This document shows, piece after piece, positions 17,636 to 28,374 of a stretch of DNA of 64,000 bases. The stretch is from assembly GCA_024228575.1 (NCBI GenBank), contig JAAETH010000542.1, positions 1 to 64,000 of the forward strand, read 5' to 3'. The translations under genes were made by a program, and so were the position numbers. The notes under the pieces are model-generated. The model had not been told where the DNA came from and ran no database searches. It saw only the letters and a program-made list of their open reading frames with translations. Source of the DNA: Actinomycetes bacterium. Lineage in GTDB: Bacteria; Actinomycetota; Acidimicrobiia; Acidimicrobiales; Poriferisodalaceae. How positions within the stretch are numbered: the stretch's first letter is position 1; every line of letters starts with the position of its first letter.

Positions 17636-20600
17636 TCAGCGGCGGAGGAGCTCCGGTTGATCATGGCGCCTGCCGAACACGATGGCTGCACCGAGGGCGA
17701 TCAGGAGAACCGCAGCCACCAGGAGTCCCAGTATGGTCGCCCCGGTCCTGGCGAGGGCTGGAGATGCCGGCTCGACGGTTCCGTTGGCGCCGTCCTGACC
17801 GTCGGGATCACTTTCGGGAGCAATACCCAGCTCGCCGGCGAGGGTGCCGTCACCATCGCGCAGTTCTGCATAGATTTCGTCGAGGACGTCCTGGGGAAGA
17901 ACGGTTTCGGCGATCTCGTTTCCACCCGCGACGGTCGCATTGTTGGTCACCTGCGAACCCGAGCCACCCGACACGTTGACGCTCAGATCGATGGTCCATA
18001 TGGCGCCGACGGCCATCACGTTCGGGTTGGTGCATGTCACCGCGCCGGTTTCGTGTGTACATGTCGCTCCGTCGATGCTGGTCGCGGAGCTCGAGTAGCT
18101 CAGAGCGCTGGGTAGTTCGTCGACGACCACAACATCACCACGGCTCTCGGACGGACCGAGGTTCGTCACGGTCAGCTCATAGGTGGCGTCGCCGCCCACC
18201 TGGAGTGAGTCCTGCAGGGACTTGTCGATGTTGATGATCGACAGCGGTACGGCGACCTCGTCGTCGTCGCTGTTGTCGGTCTCGTCGGGATCTACCGTCG
18301 GCGAGGTGACTGAAGCCGTGTTTGTAACACCGGTCGCCGCGGCCACGTCGACGCTGACGATCATGTCGAAGGTCGAGCCCGAGCCCGACGCCATGTCGAC
18401 GGGATCGCTGGTGCCGGTGGCGACGAAGGTGCAGGTCACGTCCTGGACCACGGCAGCGCAGCTCCAGCTGTCACTGCCCGTTCCGATGAAGGTGACCCCG
18501 TCTGGCAGCACGTCTGAGACCACCACCGGCGATGCCGCAGGTGCGGGACCGTCGTTGACGACGGAGATGGTCCAGATGTTCTCGGATCCGATGGCGAATT
18601 CGCCGGTGCTCGTCTTCAGGATCGCCAGGTCGGCCTCTCGTCTGTATCCGAAATCGACATCGGTTCGGTCCTCGGCCGCCACGAGGGGAGCCGCCGTTTG
18701 GTGGGGTGTTTCAACCCCATCAACATCGTGTGTGGGAACCGAACCCGCAGGCAGGGAAAGATCGTCGATCGTGATCGAGTAGTCACCTTCAGGGAGGTTG
18801 CCCACCTGATAGGTGCCCCCACCAGAAGTGGTCGTCTCATCGGTGAAGGTCAAGCCAGAGATGGGGTCGGAGTAGACGATTGAGACAACCACGCCGTCGA
18901 TGCCGGCCTCGCTCTCGTCGAACACTCCGTCGCCGTCGACATCGGTCCACACGGTGTCGCCGAGCGACCCTGTGCCGGTCACTGCGAAGTCCTGGTCGAG
19001 ATCGTCGGTTGTGACACCATCGAGCGTCGTTCCCGACACGAGGGCGGTGCCAACACCGTCGGCGTCGTAGGTCGCTGTCGTTCCTGCGGGAATGGTCGCT
19101 ACCCCGAGTTGAACCGTGTAGTCGCCGTAGGGCAGACCGGTGAGCAGATAGGCACCATCGCTGTCCGTCGTGACGGCTGTCTCCATGTCGGACCCGCCGG
19201 TCGGGTTGGTCCAGACGATCGTGACGTCGGCGTTCGGGATTGCGACGTCGTCGGCACCGGGCACGCCGTCGTCCTCGGCTCCGTCACGGTCGAAGAACAC
19301 GATGTCGCCGATCGATCCGGCGCCGTTGTACCCGAAGTCCTGCGAGAGATCGTCGCGGACCAGGGTGGTCAGGATGGTCGCTGAGGTGTGCGGCGACACG
19401 ATGCCATCGCCGTCGTACGTCGGTGAGAACCCCGGTGGAATGTCGGTGTCGTCGAGGGAGATCGACATGTTCGTGTCGAGCGGAAGTTGCCCGAACGTGT
19501 ATGCACCATCGAGGTCGCTGACAGCGGCGACCGAGATCGAGACACCGGAGGGTCCGGAGTAGTCGAGCGTCACGTCGATGCCTGCCAAACCGACCTCGTC
19601 ACCGCCGACGGATCCATCCCCGTCGAGGTCGAACCAGACGGTGTCGCCGACGGAGCCGGCACCGGTGTAGGAGAAGTCCTGATCGAGATCGTCCGGTGTG
19701 CCGCCGTCGAGGATCAGAACCGCCGAGTGGGCTGTTGTGGTGCCGTCGGCGTCGAAGGTCGGAACGTCGATCCCGGCGGGAAGAGTGTCGGTGTCGACCA
19801 CGACCGAGAAAGCGCCGTGTGGCAGGTTGGTCACCAGCCACTCACCGTTGTTGTCGGTAGTAGCACCAAACTCGACATCGTCGAGGCTCTCGTCTGTTCC
19901 CGGAGTGCCTGCATCGTCGTCGATGACACCGTCGAGACCACCCCACGTCACGGTCAATTCGACGGACTCGAGGGCCTGATCCTGATCGGTGAAGACCCCC
20001 GAACCGACCGGGTCGGCTGCGCCGTCGTCGTCCTGGTCGAACCAGACGGTGTCGCCGACCGAACCGGCGCCCGTATAGGAGAAGTCCTGGTCGAGATCGT
20101 CGGGTGTGCTGACGTTGAGGACAACGGTCGACCCATGGGGACTGCCCGTACCGTCATCGTCGTATGTGGGCGTCATACCCCCGGGAAGGCTGGTGTCATC
20201 GATCGTGACCGTGAATGTGCCATGGGGCAGATCGGTCACTCCCCACAGGCCGTCGGCATCTGTGGCCACCGTGTATGTGGCATCGTCGCCCTGCGGGTTG
20301 GCCCATACGACGGTTATGTCGATGCCGCCAAGACCCGATTCACCGACGTCGGCAGTCGGAGTCCCCGATCCGTCGATGTCGTACCACACGGTGTCGCCTA
20401 GCGACCCCGCACCGGCGTATCCGAAGTCCTGATCGAGGCTCGATGGGTTGCCGGTGTCCAACACCGTGGCCGAGGTGTGGGCGGTGCCGGTACCGTCGGC
20501 GTCGACCGTGGGAGCCAACCCGGCGGGCAGATCGGTGTCGTCGACGGTGATGGTGAAGTTGCCTTCTGGCAGGTTGTCGAAGACGTAGCCACCATCTGTG

Positions 20601-23600
20601 ACAGTGGTCGTCGTCTGGGTGACGTCGTCGCCGCCACCGGACGAACCGTCCGCTCCGAACCACACGAGTGTGACGGTCACCCCGGAGATACCGACTTCGC
20701 CCGGGTCATCGACTCCGTCGTTGTCCTGATCGAGCCAGACCCTGTCCCCGATCAACCCTGCGACCTCACCCGTATAGGAGAAGTCCTGTGTGAGGTCGTC
20801 GGGTGTGCCACCGCTCAACGTGACGCCGGACGTGTGAGCGGTGCCGGTGCCGTCGGAGTCGTAGGTCGCCGTCGCAAGGCCTGCAGGCAGGTCGGTGTCG
20901 TCGACAACGATCGTGTAGTCGCCATGTGGCAGGCTCGGCACGAGATAGTCGCCCGAAACGTCGGTCGTCACGATGGCTGCGAAGTCGTCGCTGTTCCCCG
21001 GGGTTCCATCGGCACCGGCCCAGGTGACGGTCACGGCGATGTTCGGCACCCCGCTGTCGCCGGCATCGGGAACGCCGTCGGCTTCGGACGCATCGATGTC
21101 GAAGAACACGGTGTCACCGATCGAGCCGGTACCCCGATAGCCGAAGTCCTGATCCGCATCGGATGGAGAGCCACCGCTCAACGTGACGCCGGACGTGTGA
21201 GCGGTGCCGGTGCCGTCGGAGTCGTAGGTCTGGATCATGGCCCCTGGCAACGTCGCGTCGTCGACCGTCACGGTGTAGTCACCATGGGGCAGGTTGGCGA
21301 ACGAATACGTGCCGTCGAGAGCGGTGGCATCGCTCAGCGTGACGTCGTCGATGGTGCTCGGTGTGGCGTCGGCGCCGACCCAGACGAGGGTCACGGTGAC
21401 GGCGCCGAGGCCGGGTTCGCCTGCTCCGATCGAGGTGTCACCGTCGTGGTCGAACCACACCGTGTCGCCGACAGTGCCAGCTCCCGCGTACGAGAAGTCG
21501 ACGTCGTTCTGGATCTCGGCAGGGTCGAGCGTGATGTCGACCACGTTGGGTGTTCCGGTGCCGTCGAGGTCGTAGGTCTGGGTCATCCCCGAGGGAATAT
21601 CCGCGACGTTCACGGCGATCTGATAGTCGCCGGGGGCAACAACATCGAACAGATAGTTGCCGGAAGGATCGGTCGTGTCGGTGAACACGAGGTCGTCACC
21701 ATTGCCGGGAATGTCGTCCCAACCAGCCCACGTCGCGGAGACGTCGATGTTGGGCAGAGCAGGCTCACCGACGCCATCGGTGGGATCGGCCGAGAGGTCG
21801 ACATCCCACCAGACGACGTCGCCGATGGTCTGGGCACCATCGGGAACGTACCCGTAGTCGAATTCGAGGTCGGCGAGAACTCCCCCTGGGGTCGTCGTAT
21901 CGGCGCTCGTGACCTGATCGGTCGACACATGGGGAGTGCCGGTGCCGTCGCGGTCGAAGCTCGGGGTCAGGCCGACGAGGTTCGGCGACAGCCCCGTATT
22001 GATGGTGACGGTGATGTCGGAGTACGAGGGGAGTCCCGCACCGCTCGGAACTGTGAATGAACCGTCGGCAGCGGTCGTGACCGAATAGGACTGGGGTGAA
22101 CTGTCGCCAGGGTCGCTCCATGTGATGTCGACCTGAACGCCGGGAATGCCTGGCTCGCCGACATCCTGAACACCGTCGCCGTTCAGGTCGAGCCAGACGA
22201 AGTCGCCCAGCGTGACCGGGGTTGACGTGATCGAAACGGTGTCCTGATCGTCCTCGGCCGGCTGGCTGTTGGCCGGCACCGAGTCCGAGTCGTATTGATC
22301 GACGGTTTCGGCCTGGGCGATGTTGGCGATAGCGCCAAGGCCAACGATGCGGGTTCTCAAGGTGAGAGTCAACGTGGCGCCGCTGGTCACCGTACCGATC
22401 GTCCAGATGTCGCTTCCATCGTCGTAGGTTCCCTGATCGACAGAAACGACGGAGTCGTACTCGAGCTCGACCGGGTTCAGAACGTCGGACACGGTCACAT
22501 TCGTCGCATCATCGGGTCCGAGGTTGTCGACGGTGACCGTGTACTCGATGTAGGAGCCGAACCAGTAGGGGCCGTTGCTCGGATCGCTGTCGCCCTCGAT
22601 GGGAGAGACGGTCTTGGCGACCTCGATGTCCGCTCGGGCGATGAACACGTCATCGGTGTCGGTGTCCCCATACTGCTCGGGTGGTGTGCCGCCGGCGCCG
22701 TCGGGGTCGCAGCACGTCGCCGATGTGGTGACGTCCTCGCCGTCGGTTGAGGCATTGTTCGTGTGAGCGAATCCGCCGCCACCGTCATAGCTGGTGTAGG
22801 CCTCGCCCGTGATCTGGTCTGGTGTCAGGGCCGCAGATTGTGGGGTAGCGGTGAATGTGATGGTGACCGTCTGACCCGGTGCCAGTGGCTCGGCCGGACC
22901 CGAGACGAGCAGCGCCCAATCGAGAGTTTCGGTGTTGAGGACGGCCGCGTCACCACAACTGCCTGCGTCGGGTGAACAGGCCGGATCGACGGCTGCGGGC
23001 CCACCATTGTGTGGTGTCGTCACCTGGGCACTGGCGGTGTCGTAGGTCCAGCCTGCGGGCAGAACGTCGGAGACGTTCACGTTGTAGGCGGCGGCAACCG
23101 CGTCGGTGTTCGTGACAACCACGGTCCACGAGAAGGGAACGTCGCGGCGGACGTCCGTCGGATCGCCTGACGTCGGTGCCTTCGTGACCGAGAGCTGCGG
23201 GAAGTGAACCTCGACGATGACCGAGTCGGTGGTGACAGGGCCACGTGTTGCCGAGACGTCGTTGCCGTAGGTCACGATGTCGTCGTTCGCCGGGTTGTTC
23301 GTGATGATCGTGCCTCGATCTGCCGCCGAGATGCCGTAGTACGTCGAGAGGTCGACCGTGTTCGTCAGGTCTGCGTCTCTCAGAATCGTGTCGGACGCGT
23401 CGATCTCGACGTCGTAGTCGAGGGTCGCTGCGCCTGCCGGGGCTATCGGTCCGGCGACAGCCCAGGTGATCGTGCGCCCGGTTTCATTCCAGATGCCCGT
23501 CGACCCCGAGTTGCCTGTGATCGTCTGGCCATCGGTCGTGGCGAGAGCGCCACCGGGCGAGAGCAGTGGGGTGACTCCAACCGGGACGGTGTCGACGATC

Positions 23601-26600
23601 GTGAGATCGTGGGCGTCGTTTGTGCCAGACGAGGTGGCGGTGACGGTGTAGCGGAGTTGAGCGCCCGCGGAGGTATCGCAGCCGTTGCCACCCGCTCCAT
23701 CGGCGTCGTCGCCACCACCCGTGTTGTTGCCTGGGGTCGAGTCACACGTCGGGTTGACCAGGATACCGCCCGCCGTTGTGGCCACGTCCTTGTCGATGTC
23801 GATCGCCGGCTCGGTGACGGTGAACGACTGTGTGACGGGCCCGTCGGTGTTCGCCCACGATCCCGAACCCGGCGAGTTGAACCCCGCCTGCAGGGACAGT
23901 GGCGTCTGGTCCGCAACCTGATTGGTGGTGTTCCACGCGATGTTGGCCGAGTTCGTGACCGAATCGGTGTCGAAAGCGGTCGTGTTCAGATGGGCCGAGT
24001 ATCGGACGTTGATCGTGCATATGCCGTTGGCGTAGATGTCGCCCAGGAACCATGCCGCTGTCTGAGCGTCCCCGCCCGCCGGATTGAACGTCTCCACGTC
24101 GGAGTCCGTCAGCGAGATGCCGGTTGTGCTGCCGGTGCCGGAGTCGAAGATCTCGCACTCCGTTCCCGGCGCGATCGACGCGAACTGGTCGAAGTCGAGA
24201 GTTGGTGGCAACACATCGAAGATCGTCGCGTCGTACGCGGCAGTACCGGAGGGGATGTCCACCTCGACCTCGTAGCCGACGGGTTCGCCGATCGTGGCGC
24301 CCGAGATGTCGTCGAGGGCGTCACCGGCGTTGAACGGTTCGATGTCCTTTGTGATCGAGGCCAACGGCAGATTCACGGTGTCGGCTTCGAGCCCCGAGTA
24401 GCCTCTGGCGTCACCGGCGTTGGGGTCAGGGGTCGGAGTTGTGTCCTGGTCGAGGGTCCACAACGTCAACGACGCCGTGTTGGTCAGTATCGACGAGGTG
24501 ACGGCGGGGTCGTCGACCTCGACGTCATAGGTCAGCTGGATGGTTGCGTCGGGGTCGATCGACTCGAGCGCCGACCATTCGGCGTTGCTCCAGGTGATGG
24601 TGCGGTTGGTTTCGGACCAGGTTCCGTCGAAGGAACCGGCTGGAAGCACACCCGTCGAGGGAACTGTGTCGCCGTTGGTGGAGACGGGGACCGCACCGAG
24701 GCCCAGTGGCGTCAGGCCGGCGGGGACGCCGTCGACAATCGTCAAATCGTGACCGACCGACACATTGTTCGCTGAGGTCGGGTTGGTGACCGTCACCCGG
24801 TAGGTGACCGTTTGTCCTGGTGAGACGGTTGCGCCGAGGGGAACGGTGTGGTCCTTGACGAGTATCGGGTTCACCTCGACAACATGGGTGTGAACAGTCG
24901 ACGAGAGCACGTCCGGACGGTTGTTTGCCGAGGAGTCCTCCCAGTCGAATGCACCCTGATTGGCGAGGTCGGTCGCAACCGGATCGGCGACGTTGCCGCC
25001 CACATCGGAAACCTGGGCGTAGAACGCGATCGTGACCAGGTCGTCGCCCGAACCGGCGGCATTTGTGTGAGAAGCGGGCAGGTCATAGCTGACGGTTCCA
25101 GCGTTGTGGACCACGGAGCCAACCGTCAGCGCACCGGTTCCGGAGGGGCTCGAGACCGAGGGCTGCAGATTTGAAACGGAGCCGTCGAACAAGCCGTTGC
25201 CTGCGAAATAGGTGAGGCCGGCGGGCAACACATCGAAGACCGTGCCGTTGTAGACGCTGGTCCCATGCGGGATCACAAGCGTCACCTCGTAGAGGACGAT
25301 TTCGCCGATCGTGGCCTGCTCGTCGGCAGAGCCGGGGAATCCCAGGGATGAGTTGCCGGTCTCGGCGATGCCCGATTGTTGACCCTTGAGCACTATCGGG
25401 GTAGGCGAGACGATGTAGGCGGGGTCGTCGGCCGCGTCGGTGTTCTCGAATGCGGAGTTGGCGGGATCGATGTTCGACGCTGGGTAATAGTCGAAGGTGC
25501 CTGCATTTGTGCTGCCTTGATATGTGGCTACACCGGCGTTGTTGGCCCACGTGTGGGCAGGGTCGACACCGACGGGAACGGTCAGGTCGTAGGTGAGCGT
25601 GACAGGTGCGGTCGTCTCGTCGTCGGGGGTCAGGTCACCTCCGCCGGTCGATGCAGCGACGGTGAGGCCGGTCCAGGTGATGATGCCCGCCGAGCAGGAG
25701 CCTCCGTTCGAGATCGCCGAGATGTCACCACAAACGAACTCGGTGTTGAGGACGTCCTGTACCTCGGTGTTGACAGCGTCGGAGTTGCCGATATTCCACA
25801 CATCGACCCTGTAGGTGACGACGTCGCCGGCCCGGATGATGGCCGCGGTTGAGCCGCCGCTGAGCGAGGTGTCGTAGTCGGGCCCATTTGATGCGCCTGC
25901 ATTGACGGTGTCGACGCCGGTTGCGAGGCGAACCTCTGGCTCGGTCCACTCGGCTTCGGCCTGGTCGCGATACTGGAAGACGAGCCCGGCGTTGTTGTTG
26001 TGGACCATCTTCTCGAGGTTGGCCTCGATGTCGTTGGCCTGGCCGAGCGTGTTGTCGTTCATCTCCGCGGCGACGACCCACAGGAACTCGTGACCGTCCG
26101 CCTCGACTTCGCCGGTCCCGTCGAGGGTGAACGTGACCACCGATGCGGATTCGGTGATGCTGGTGGCTGCGAGGGTGTCGGTCGTTGCGATCCGGGTCGC
26201 CGATCCCGCGACGTAGGTGTACCCGGCTGGCAGGAGATCTTGGAGCTGGACACCTTCGTAGTCGATGGCAGCCGGGAACGTGGCCCCGAGTTCGAAGCAG
26301 ATGATGTCTCCGGGTCCGAACCCGAGCTCCGGGGTCGGGTTGCCCTCGGCCCAGGTGATGGACCCGTACGACACACCACACGTCGATCCGGTGGCGCCGG
26401 AGCCATTGGCGAGGGGGCCCGCCTTGACCGAGATCCGCTTGTTGAGCGAGGGCAGGGTGTTGGTCAGCTCGTCCCATGCGGTGTCGCCGTCGGCCCCGCC
26501 ATCGGGGTCGACGGGGTCGGCGGGCAGGACCACATCGGCGATCGTGTCAGGGCCCTCGACTTCGGCCTCGTTTGTGGCGCGGTCGCCGGCGAGGACCTCC

Positions 26601-28246
26601 TCACCCGGCAGTTGGGCGAGGCTGCCACGGTAGAAGTCGCGCACGACCGCCGTGTACGTGATGGTCAGGCTGTTGTCGGAGTCGAGGTCGGCAAGGGCTG
26701 CGTTCTGAGGGTCGGAGAAGTCCCAGACGATCTCGAAGCGCCCGCTCCCGTAGGGACCCCCAGAAGGAAGTTCGCGAACCTCTGCGACGTCGACGGGCGA
26801 TCCACCGATCGTGGACTGGATGGTCCCGGAGCCAACACAGTCGGTGGTGTTCCAGTCCGACCCACCCGACGTGTTGTCGGTGGTGAACGTGCCCATGAAA
26901 CACATCGACGAGGGCAACAGATCCCGAACGATCAGGTTGGTGAAATCGCGGTACTCAGAGGTCGAGATCGTCAAAGTGGTGACGACGTTGGTGCCCTGGA
27001 CGAGGGCGCCACCCATGGATTTGGTGATGATGATGTCCTCGGATTCGATCACCAGGACGTCGCTGTCAGACCCGCCTGCGGCCGTCGGCACATATGTGCC
27101 GGTGGCGTTTGCCGTCGTCGCTTGGAGCTGCTCGTTCGCCGTCAGCAATTCGGGATCGGCACCGACACTTCGGTCGAGCTCGCCCGTCGATGTTCCCGTG
27201 TTGTTGTCGAGGTTGCGGCCCTGGTCGAGACTCGCTTCGGTCGGGGGTGATCCGCTGAACGGTCGGTTCTCGTACAAGGCGATGCCCGCTCGGTAGTCGA
27301 CGCTGACCGTTGCGCTCGGAGTGAGGTCGCCGAGGTACCAGGTGACGACAGTCTCGCCCCCGGAGCCGGTCGCAACGGTTTCGGGTGTGGTCAGAGCGGT
27401 TGCCCCGCAGCCCGTTCCCGTGGCCACAACACCGGACCCGAGCCACTCCTCGCCCACGGTGGTGTTGTCGGACGCGTAATAGTTGTCGCAGCCCAGGAAC
27501 TCGAGGCCGGGATCGAGGGTGCCGGTCAGGGTGACGGTGTCGACCTCGTAGTCGGGGTTGTTCTCGACGACAATCGTGTAGTCGGCGCCGGTGGTTCCAC
27601 TGGCCGACTCAAATCCGTTCTGGTGTACACCTCTGAGCAATTCGGTTGCGCCGGTCGTGGTGACTCGGAATGGGATCATCTCGACCACGTCTGTGGTAGT
27701 GCCGGAACCATCGAAGTCGCCGGTGAACACGCCGGTTCCGAGGTCGTAGTCGGGGATCAGGAAGGCGTTGAGGCTGGCGACAGCCTCGATCGATGTCGTC
27801 ATGAAATCCCCGACCGGGGCGGTGGTCGATCCGGTGATTCCACCCGTGAAGTCGGGGTTTGTGTCGACCGTCAGCTCCACGTGTGCTTGTGAGTTGGCGG
27901 GAAGATCGGAGACGTTCGACCAGATGATCGTCGTCTCGCCGATCGATGGGACGTCGGTGAGCACTTCGGTCGCTTCGGGGCTGGCCGAGACGTGTTCGAA
28001 CCCGACGGGGACAACGGCCCGAAACGACAGGTTGTAGAGGGGTGAGGCCGACGCGTGGTCACCCGTCGCCGTCAGGGTGAAGGTGACGTTCTCACCGATG
28101 AGCGCCCTGCTGTCGACGTTGTTGTCGGCCACCACCGAGAAGTTGTCGGCGACGCCGGCTGCGGCCGGGGTCGATGGAAGGCCGGGCGCGGCGACAAGGA
28201 CCGCGGACAAGACGAGCACTGCGGCGAAGCAGCGCGTCGAGCGCAT
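17636..28246 (-). CDS. Giant cell-wall-anchored surface protein: DUF11-type modules, ten SdrD B-like repeats, LARTG sorting signal
   Basis: 3536 residues from ATG at 28246 (a GTG at 28282 would add 12). The ATG gives a normal signal peptide (MRSTRCFAAVLVLSAVLVAA, then PAAA-G). The first ~2010 residues hold about eleven DUF11-type modules, each with a YxVxVxN core and an LPxGLT-like turn. Ten SdrD B-like repeats follow (18635-22215), each starting GDTVWFDxDGDG and containing LPHGDYTVTVDD and DQDFxYxG. Two more DUF11-type modules come next (GPSESRGDVVVVDELP), then a linker, LARTG (17741-17755), a membrane helix and RRHDQPELLRR. LAxTG is known as a class E sortase signal in actinomycetes. The DxDGDG loops suggest Ca2+ binding. 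Probably an adhesin or envelope stalk; no ligand can be named. Confidence 0.9.
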   Translation of the reverse strand: MRSTRCFAAVLVLSAVLVAAPGLPSTPAAAGVADNFSVVADNNVDSRALIGENVTFTLTATGDHASASPLYNLSFRAVVPVGFEHVSASPEATEVLTDVPSIGETTIIWSNVSDLPANSQAHVELTVDTNPDFTGGITGSTTAPVGDFMTTSIEAVASLNAFLIPDYDLGTGVFTGDFDGSGTTTDVVEMIPFRVTTTGATELLRGVHQNGFESASGTTGADYTIVVENNPDYEVDTVTLTGTLDPGLEFLGCDNYYASDNTTVGEEWLGSGVVATGTGCGATALTTPETVATGSGGETVVTWYLGDLTPSATVSVDYRAGIALYENRPFSGSPPTEASLDQGRNLDNNTGTSTGELDRSVGADPELLTANEQLQATTANATGTYVPTAAGGSDSDVLVIESEDIIITKSMGGALVQGTNVVTTLTISTSEYRDFTNLIVRDLLPSSMCFMGTFTTDNTSGGSDWNTTDCVGSGTIQSTIGGSPVDVAEVRELPSGGPYGSGRFEIVWDFSDPQNAALADLDSDNSLTITYTAVVRDFYRGSLAQLPGEEVLAGDRATNEAEVEGPDTIADVVLPADPVDPDGGADGDTAWDELTNTLPSLNKRISVKAGPLANGSGATGSTCGVSYGSITWAEGNPTPELGFGPGDIICFELGATFPAAIDYEGVQLQDLLPAGYTYVAGSATRIATTDTLAATSITESASVVTFTLDGTGEVEADGHEFLWVVAAEMNDNTLGQANDIEANLEKMVHNNNAGLVFQYRDQAEAEWTEPEVRLATGVDTVNAGASNGPDYDTSLSGGSTAAIIRAGDVVTYRVDVWNIGNSDAVNTEVQDVLNTEFVCGDISAISNGGSCSAGIITWTGLTVAASTGGGDLTPDDETTAPVTLTYDLTVPVGVDPAHTWANNAGVATYQGSTNAGTFDYYPASNIDPANSAFENTDAADDPAYIVSPTPIVLKGQQSGIAETGNSSLGFPGSADEQATIGEIVLYEVTLVIPHGTSVYNGTVFDVLPAGLTYFAGNGLFDGSVSNLQPSVSSPSGTGALTVGSVVHNAGTVSYDLPASHTNAAGSGDDLVTIAFYAQVSDVGGNVADPVATDLANQGAFDWEDSSANNRPDVLSSTVHTHVVEVNPILVKDHTVPLGATVSPGQTVTYRVTVTNPTSANNVSVGHDLTIVDGVPAGLTPLGLGAVPVSTNGDTVPSTGVLPAGSFDGTWSETNRTITWSNAEWSALESIDPDATIQLTYDVEVDDPAVTSSILTNTASLTLWTLDQDTTPTPDPNAGDARGYSGLEADTVNLPLASITKDIEPFNAGDALDDISGATIGEPVGYEVEVDIPSGTAAYDATIFDVLPPTLDFDQFASIAPGTECEIFDSGTGSTTGISLTDSDVETFNPAGGDAQTAAWFLGDIYANGICTINVRYSAHLNTTAFDTDSVTNSANIAWNTTNQVADQTPLSLQAGFNSPGSGSWANTDGPVTQSFTVTEPAIDIDKDVATTAGGILVNPTCDSTPGNNTGGGDDADGAGGNGCDTSAGAQLRYTVTATSSGTNDAHDLTIVDTVPVGVTPLLSPGGALATTDGQTITGNSGSTGIWNETGRTITWAVAGPIAPAGAATLDYDVEIDASDTILRDADLTNTVDLSTYYGISAADRGTIITNNPANDDIVTYGNDVSATRGPVTTDSVIVEVHFPQLSVTKAPTSGDPTDVRRDVPFSWTVVVTNTDAVAAAYNVNVSDVLPAGWTYDTASAQVTTPHNGGPAAVDPACSPDAGSCGDAAVLNTETLDWALLVSGPAEPLAPGQTVTITFTATPQSAALTPDQITGEAYTSYDGGGGFAHTNNASTDGEDVTTSATCCDPDGAGGTPPEQYGDTDTDDVFIARADIEVAKTVSPIEGDSDPSNGPYWFGSYIEYTVTVDNLGPDDATNVTVSDVLNPVELEYDSVVSVDQGTYDDGSDIWTIGTVTSGATLTLTLRTRIVGLGAIANIAQAETVDQYDSDSVPANSQPAEDDQDTVSITSTPVTLGDFVWLDLNGDGVQDVGEPGIPGVQVDITWSDPGDSSPQSYSVTTAADGSFTVPSGAGLPSYSDITVTINTGLSPNLVGLTPSFDRDGTGTPHVSTDQVTSADTTTPGGVLADLEFDYGYVPDGAQTIGDVVWWDVDLSADPTDGVGEPALPNIDVSATWAGWDDIPGNGDDLVFTDTTDPSGNYLFDVVAPGDYQIAVNVADIPSGMTQTYDLDGTGTPNVVDITLDPAEIQNDVDFSYAGAGTVGDTVWFDHDGDTSIGAGEPGLGAVTVTLVWVGADATPSTIDDVTLSDATALDGTYSFANLPHGDYTVTVDDATLPGAMIQTYDSDGTGTAHTSGVTLSGGSPSDADQDFGYRGTGSIGDTVFFDIDASEADGVPDAGDSGVPNIAVTVTWAGADGTPGNSDDFAAIVTTDVSGDYLVPSLPHGDYTIVVDDTDLPAGLATATYDSDGTGTAHTSGVTLSGGTPDDLTQDFSYTGEVAGLIGDRVWLDQDNDGVDDPGEVGISGVTVTLVWFGADGSSGGGDDVTQTTTTVTDGGYVFDNLPEGNFTITVDDTDLPAGLAPTVDADGTGTAHTSATVLDTGNPSSLDQDFGYAGAGSLGDTVWYDIDGSGTPTADVGESGLGGIDITVVWANPQGDDATYTVATDADGLWGVTDLPHGTFTVTIDDTSLPGGMTPTYDDDGTGSPHGSTVVLNVSTPDDLDQDFSYTGAGSVGDTVWFDQDDDGAADPVGSGVFTDQDQALESVELTVTWGGLDGVIDDDAGTPGTDESLDDVEFGATTDNNGEWLVTNLPHGAFSVVVDTDTLPAGIDVPTFDADGTTTAHSAVLILDGGTPDDLDQDFSYTGAGSVGDTVWFDLDGDGSVGGDEVGLAGIDVTLDYSGPSGVSISVAAVSDLDGAYTFGQLPLDTNMSISLDDTDIPPGFSPTYDGDGIVSPHTSATILTTLVRDDLSQDFGYNGAGSIGDIVFFDRDGAEDDGVPGADDVAIPNADVTIVWTNPTGGSDMETAVTTDSDGAYLLTGLPYGDYTVQLGVATIPAGTTATYDADGVGTALVSGTTLDGVTTDDLDQDFAVTGTGSLGDTVWTDVDGDGVFDESEAGIDGVVVSIVYSDPISGLTFTDETTTSGGGTYQVGNLPEGDYSITIDDLSLPAGSVPTHDVDGVETPHQTAAPLVAAEDRTDVDFGYRREADLAILKTSTGEFAIGSENIWTISVVNDGPAPAASPVVVSDVLPDGVTFIGTGSDSWSCAAVVQDVTCTFVATGTSDPVDMASGSGSTFDMIVSVDVAAATGVTNTASVTSPTVDPDETDNSDDDEVAVPLSIINIDKSLQDSLQVGGDATYELTVTNLGPSESRGDVVVVDELPSALSYSSSATSIDGATCTHETGAVTCTNPNVMAVGAIWTIDLSVNVSGGSGSQVTNNATVAGGNEIAETVLPQDVLDEIYAELRDGDGTLAGELGIAPESDPDGQDGANGTVEPASPALARTGATILGLLVAAVLLIALGAAIVFGRRHDQPELLRR
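20807..20867 (-). repeat. Exact 61-bp repeat, copy 1
   Basis: 61 bases identical to 21170-21230. Both lie at the same point of neighbouring B-like repeats and encode the tail TYDSDGTGTAHTSGVTLSGG. The two copies are 363 bp (121 codons) apart. Exact identity, including wobble bases, points to recent unequal crossover or gene conversion. Confidence 0.95.
21170..21230 (-). repeat. Exact 61-bp repeat, copy 2
   Basis: Identical to 20807-20867; see that entry. Together they bracket one B-like repeat unit, so homologous recombination between them would delete or add exactly 121 codons in frame. Confidence 0.95.
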
Positions 28247-28374
28247 TCGAATAAGCGAGACAAACCATTGAGGATGGTGCACGAAGGCTGTCTCGGCCGA
28301 TCCAGCGCTCGCTCAAGGGGTCGGCAACGGCGAGCGCCGTGCGGCTGGATACGCGGTCTGGAATCTGCCCTTGG

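Follow-up and report, generated by a model that had tools for sequence, protein, structure and literature searches.

The window analyzed here, the whole 64,000-nucleotide stretch of contig JAAETH010000542.1, carries on its minus strand a long ORF whose product combines 13 numbered DUF11/CLIPPER-type domains (D1–D13) with an array of SdrD_B repeats, framed by a putative signal peptide and a C-terminal sorting signal (Table 1). Residues are numbered throughout from the GTG at 28282; the ATG at 28246, located just before the signal peptide, is likely the preferred start and would give a protein of 3,536 aa. Translation of positions 17636–28282 yielded only 12 Lys in the 3,548 aa of the entire protein, and residues 1891–3222 (22612–18617) form an uninterrupted Lys-free run of 1,332 aa. 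No ligand-binding domain was identified in the ORF product, and the D1–D2 region possibly represents the tip of a fiber. Neighboring genes with Pfam matches encode DUF4031, an ATP-dependent DNA ligase, a glycosyltransferase and MmgE/PrpD, with no pilus operon found among them. A second Lys-poor protein (2 Lys in 795 aa), encoded at positions 46–2433 of the plus strand, carries a single SdrD_B domain together with an F5/8-type C domain. Among named relatives, the Acidimicrobiales metagenome bin HKST-UBA10 is the nearest, and a scan of genome contigs yielded no more than two relatives already known and one weak match.

Table 1 Features of the ORF and their positions in the window
Feature	Positions	Strand	Details	Basis
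Whole ORF	17636..28282	minus	3,548 aa from GTG at 28282	translation, ortholog alignment
Putative signal peptide	28157..28246	minus	MRSTRCFAAVLVLSAVLVAAPGLPSTPAAAG	read from translation
N-terminal beta domains D1–D2	27044..28150	minus	residues 45–413, without Lys	domain alignments
D3, CLIPPER-type	26468..27043	minus	triad K421-D454-N571	domain alignments
D4, CLIPPER/RrgB-D2-like	25913..26461	minus	triad K615-D682-N763, plus K620 and family-invariant K758	alignments, model
D5	25409..25930	minus	isopeptide Lys replaced by Thr	ortholog comparison
D6, CLIPPER	24878..25408	minus	triad K966-D1017-N1108	alignments
D7, CLIPPER	24371..24877	minus	triad K1143-D1184-N1268; best TIGR04226 stretch	profile and alignments
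D8, CLIPPER	23813..24370	minus	triad K1312-D1356-N1444	alignments
D9, CLIPPER	23204..23812	minus	triad K1498-D1564-N1641	alignments
D10, CLIPPER	22637..23203	minus	triad K1701-D1739-N1842 (or N1843)	alignments
D11, CLIPPER	22217..22636	minus	triad K1890-D1933-N1987; protein's best Pfam DUF11 stretch	profile and alignments
Ten SdrD_B repeats	18635..22216	minus	residues 2023–3216	Pfam match, alignment, Lys count
D12, CLIPPER	18242..18634	minus	triad K3223-D3257-N3321	alignments
D13, CLIPPER	17903..18241	minus	triad K3354-D3388-N3447; aligns to solved CLIPPER 9IFR	alignments
C-terminal sorting signal	17639..17755	minus	LARTG, hydrophobic stretch, basic tail	translation, ortholog alignment

At residues 3510–3514, the LARTG motif precedes a hydrophobic segment and basic residues, in agreement with the LAXTG-type signals on which class E sortases act. 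The sole sortase found in the genome belongs to class E and is encoded on a different contig (NF033747, 175.7 bits against a cut-off of 160), suggesting that the ORF product is anchored by this enzyme. The architecture of the ORF product points to a function as a long adhesin-like stalk.

The SdrD_B array is supported by a Pfam match (PF17210) of 307 bits against a curated cut-off of 29.7 (E 4.6e-93); Pfam gives 9 significant stretches, while the repeat number of ten was set by alignment. Translation and recount bear out the report of the first-pass annotation that Lys is missing through the tenth repeat: the ten repeats (~1,191 residues) contain no Lys, no Cys, 8 Arg and 191 Asp. As none of the repeats contains Lys, including the first-strand Lys of Cna_B-type domains, the annotation was also right that a Lys-Asn isopeptide bond cannot form in them, and a check of the ten repeats for Cys and Lys as partners of an alternative covalent pair found neither residue. 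For comparison, 246 ORFs of the same genome, taken from the window and from sampled contigs with a crude GC3 criterion, contain 1.61% Lys overall, 1.9% when likely cytoplasmic and 0.88% (~0.9%) when likely secreted. With the genome mean as the expected rate, a stretch of 1,191 residues would lack Lys with a probability of 4e-9; the secreted-protein mean gives 3e-5, but the 0.30% Lys averaged by SdrD_B domains of related genomes gives 0.028. The Lys-free array is therefore not due to chance relative to the genome, yet it is ordinary for SdrD_B domains in this order. Because relatives contain so little Lys in these domains and longer Lys-free arrays exist, the Lys-free array is a trait of the order and not of a single protein. 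A 5,235-aa ORF in genome G155 (L129:173-15877, minus strand) encodes 38 SdrD_B domains, whose 4,006 residues include no Lys.

A structural model of two SdrD_B repeats (pLDDT 96.4) finds its best match in S. aureus SdrD B1 (Z 14.6, rmsd 2.7 Å over 106 residues) and also matches the tandem SdrD B1-B2 (Z 13.7). An EF-hand-like DxDxDG...E calcium loop is present in most of the ten repeats, and across 304 SdrD_B domains of related genomes the loop columns hold Asp in 295/297, Asp or Asn in 286/297 and 283/297, and Glu or Asp in 294/300 cases. SdrG B-type domains bind three calcium ions (PMC6232131). Staphylococcal B domains are stabilized by calcium without an isopeptide bond, and SdrD_B folds are calcium-stabilized in solved structures. 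Based on loop conservation and the modeled fold, calcium is likely the stabilizer of the ten repeats, as the first-pass annotation had proposed. The repeats would then be calcium-stabilized beta-sandwiches in which Lys is not needed, and since the calcium loops are kept here, the loss of Lys would cost no cross-link. The annotation had treated the absence of Lys as a surprise calling for a substitute; this part is not supported, because staphylococcal B domains lack the bond and no Lys-enriched column was found among the 304 domains, so that an absent bond is what would be expected. The repeats share with S. aureus SdrD B1-B2 (PF17210; 4JDZ, 8VDK, 10PS) and SdrG their fold, tandem arrangement and calcium-loop residues as well as the lack of need for a Lys bond. 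They differ in being more acidic and in containing no Lys at all, whereas the aligned S. aureus B domains contain several. Lys-Glu-Asn bonds have been predicted for a few SdrD_B members elsewhere (PMC12617251), unlike here, where there are none.

The first-pass annotation, partly supported for the repeats themselves, missed that isopeptide-site Lys are kept in ten DUF11/CLIPPER domains of the same protein, which flank the SdrD_B array. The name CLIPPER was recently given to the DUF11 family, following a crystal structure that revealed a Lys-Asp-Asn isopeptide triad (Lys715-Asp748-Asn806; PMC12617251). The protein matches Pfam DUF11/CLIPPER (PF01345) with 236.9 bits against a curated cut-off of 24.6 and the isopeptide-forming domain family TIGR04226 with an E-value of 9e-48, and when D13 is aligned to the solved CLIPPER domain 9IFR, all three triad residues (Lys, Asp and Asn) coincide. 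Ten of the 12 Lys of the protein occupy triad sites, one per domain, and the Asp and Asn partners are present in all ten Lys-bearing domains, while 3 of the 13 domains lack the triad Lys. The Lys is located at the domain start, the Asp before LP or an equivalent, and the Asn typically in TNTA. The chance of 10 of 12 Lys falling on 13 such sites is ~2e-25, a post hoc figure. Automatic counts placed 7 of the 10 in the Lys column, three domain matches being partial or gapped; seed and ortholog alignments gave all 10. The protein resembles known DUF11/CLIPPER proteins (PF01345; 9IFR; PMC12617251) in its in-register triad, in the tandem repetition of the domain along a long secreted stalk and in its sorting signal, but differs in that triad Lys are nearly its only Lys and in the three domains without one. 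The flanking domains are probably CnaA-like sandwiches, of which the ten with a complete triad are expected to lock themselves by an intramolecular Lys-Asn isopeptide bond.

The two remaining Lys, K620 and K758, are located outside the standard triad site in D4. A D4–D5 model (pLDDT 79.7) matches isopeptide domains of the pilins EbpB, RrgB and BcpA, with Z-scores of 13–14 for D4 against EbpB and RrgB. The start of the alignment places K615 close to residue 193 of RrgB, taken to be the isopeptide Lys of RrgB D2. K620 is kept in close orthologs only; K758 (26009–26011, minus strand) lies close to the triad Asn within an NLxK motif and is invariant in 12 of 12 D4 relatives. D4 shares its fold and the isopeptide-forming family profile (TIGR04226) with RrgB D2 and EbpB pilin domains. 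In contrast to RrgB and EbpB pili, however, the stalk is a single long polypeptide, and no pilin-specific sortase was seen in the genome, which contains one class E sortase.

Triad residues are well conserved in relatives. The orthologs of genomes G001 (69% identity) and G160 (57%) match the protein at every one of its 12 Lys and 30 triad residues, and that of G030 (38%) keeps most of them where aligned. Natural losses can be found as well. In D2, Thr and Gly replace the triad Lys and Asp, which three relatives both keep, and the Thr at the D5 isopeptide site is shared with G001, while G160 and G030 retain Lys. A paralog on contig C431 of the same genome (L034:5184-7577, minus strand), consisting of SdrD_B repeats and two CLIPPER domains, has lost the triad Lys in both and all three triad residues in one. 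Its single Lys follows the membrane segment. Large ORFs cut by contig ends on two further contigs of this genome, C545 (L036:6122-14086, plus strand) and C458 (L037:3-7157, minus strand), show repeated PSIDIEKATNGEDA-type domain starts and possibly encode CLIPPER_2-like domains. In genome G155, an ORF with 37 CLIPPER domains (L128:2006-16999, plus strand) has 40 Lys, 36 of them triad Lys.

In 22 Lys-poor related proteins, 165 of 195 domain Lys are triad Lys and 30 are not, with a triad-site occupancy of 165/168, and across 299 CLIPPER domains, which are not independent, the presence of Lys goes along with intact partners (Fisher P 6e-5). The CLIPPER profile was seeded on Lys-containing domains, which biases the occupancy upward and also qualifies the association. 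CLIPPER domains without Lys do exist. The high triad share in the Lys-poor proteins would also fit a purge of free Lys that would otherwise mis-react with self-cross-linking domains or sortase intermediates: stray amines would be wrongly cross-linked, free Lys selected against, and the position of the remaining single-purpose Lys would read out the covalently locked domains. As proteins with SdrD_B arrays but no detected CLIPPER domain can lack Lys just as completely, like the 38-repeat protein of G155, we regard such a purge as highly unlikely. The favored explanation is a general bias to acidic surface proteins, with Lys retained where it is chemically used.

This bias extends beyond Lys. 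Arg makes up 0.67% of the repeats and 1.5% of the whole protein compared with 6.85% in the genome's other genes, and this loss shows that the general bias is against positive charge, not against Lys alone. Scarce Arg would also be expected if Lys had been removed to evade trypsin-like proteases, the few remaining ones being safely buried in isopeptide bonds, and the bond of the solved CLIPPER domain does confer proteolytic resistance (PMC12617251). However, across 45 related proteins Lys content is not significantly correlated with Arg content (rho 0.23, P 0.13), non-triad Lys decreases with increasing Asp+Glu (Spearman rho -0.49), and the gene has no link to any trypsin-like protease; we consider protease avoidance unlikely. 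The same negative correlation fits acidity as a factor, which the first-pass annotation had suggested. Nitrogen economy, meaning avoidance of nitrogen-rich side chains in surface proteins, agrees with the nitrogen content, which averages 1.10 atoms per residue for the repeats and 1.15 for the entire protein, compared with 1.34 for other genes, but an acidic bias would yield the same numbers and the protein is overall enriched in Asn, leaving nitrogen economy rather improbable. Lys loss as a mere by-product of high genomic GC disfavoring AAA/AAG codons is extremely improbable: although window GC is 64% and genome-wide Lys only 1.6%, Asn, whose codons also start with AA, rises from 2.40% in other genes to 4.1%, and GC-favored Arg drops. 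As sole cause, GC bias is rejected on these Asn and Arg contents.

We favor acidic bias as the probable cause of general Lys loss. The protein is best explained, with a probability of roughly 0.8, as a secreted, sortase-anchored fibrillar stalk that combines calcium-stabilized SdrD_B and covalently locked CLIPPER segments in an acidic lineage keeping Lys mainly for chemistry. Surface proteins of this lineage would have shed nearly all other Lys and much Arg, so that most surviving Lys would be the cross-linking ones.

Both the SdrD_B and DUF11/CLIPPER families are known; it is the pattern of retained Lys that is informative here, and a literature search of open-access papers found no published report of such a pattern. 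The single-domain Lys losses in D2, D5 and the C431 paralog represent natural before/after pairs, and one molecule allows calcium-held segments to be compared with covalently held ones. In Lys-poor stalks, Lys count may serve as a sequence-only marker of covalent locking, with retained sites marking likely bonds.
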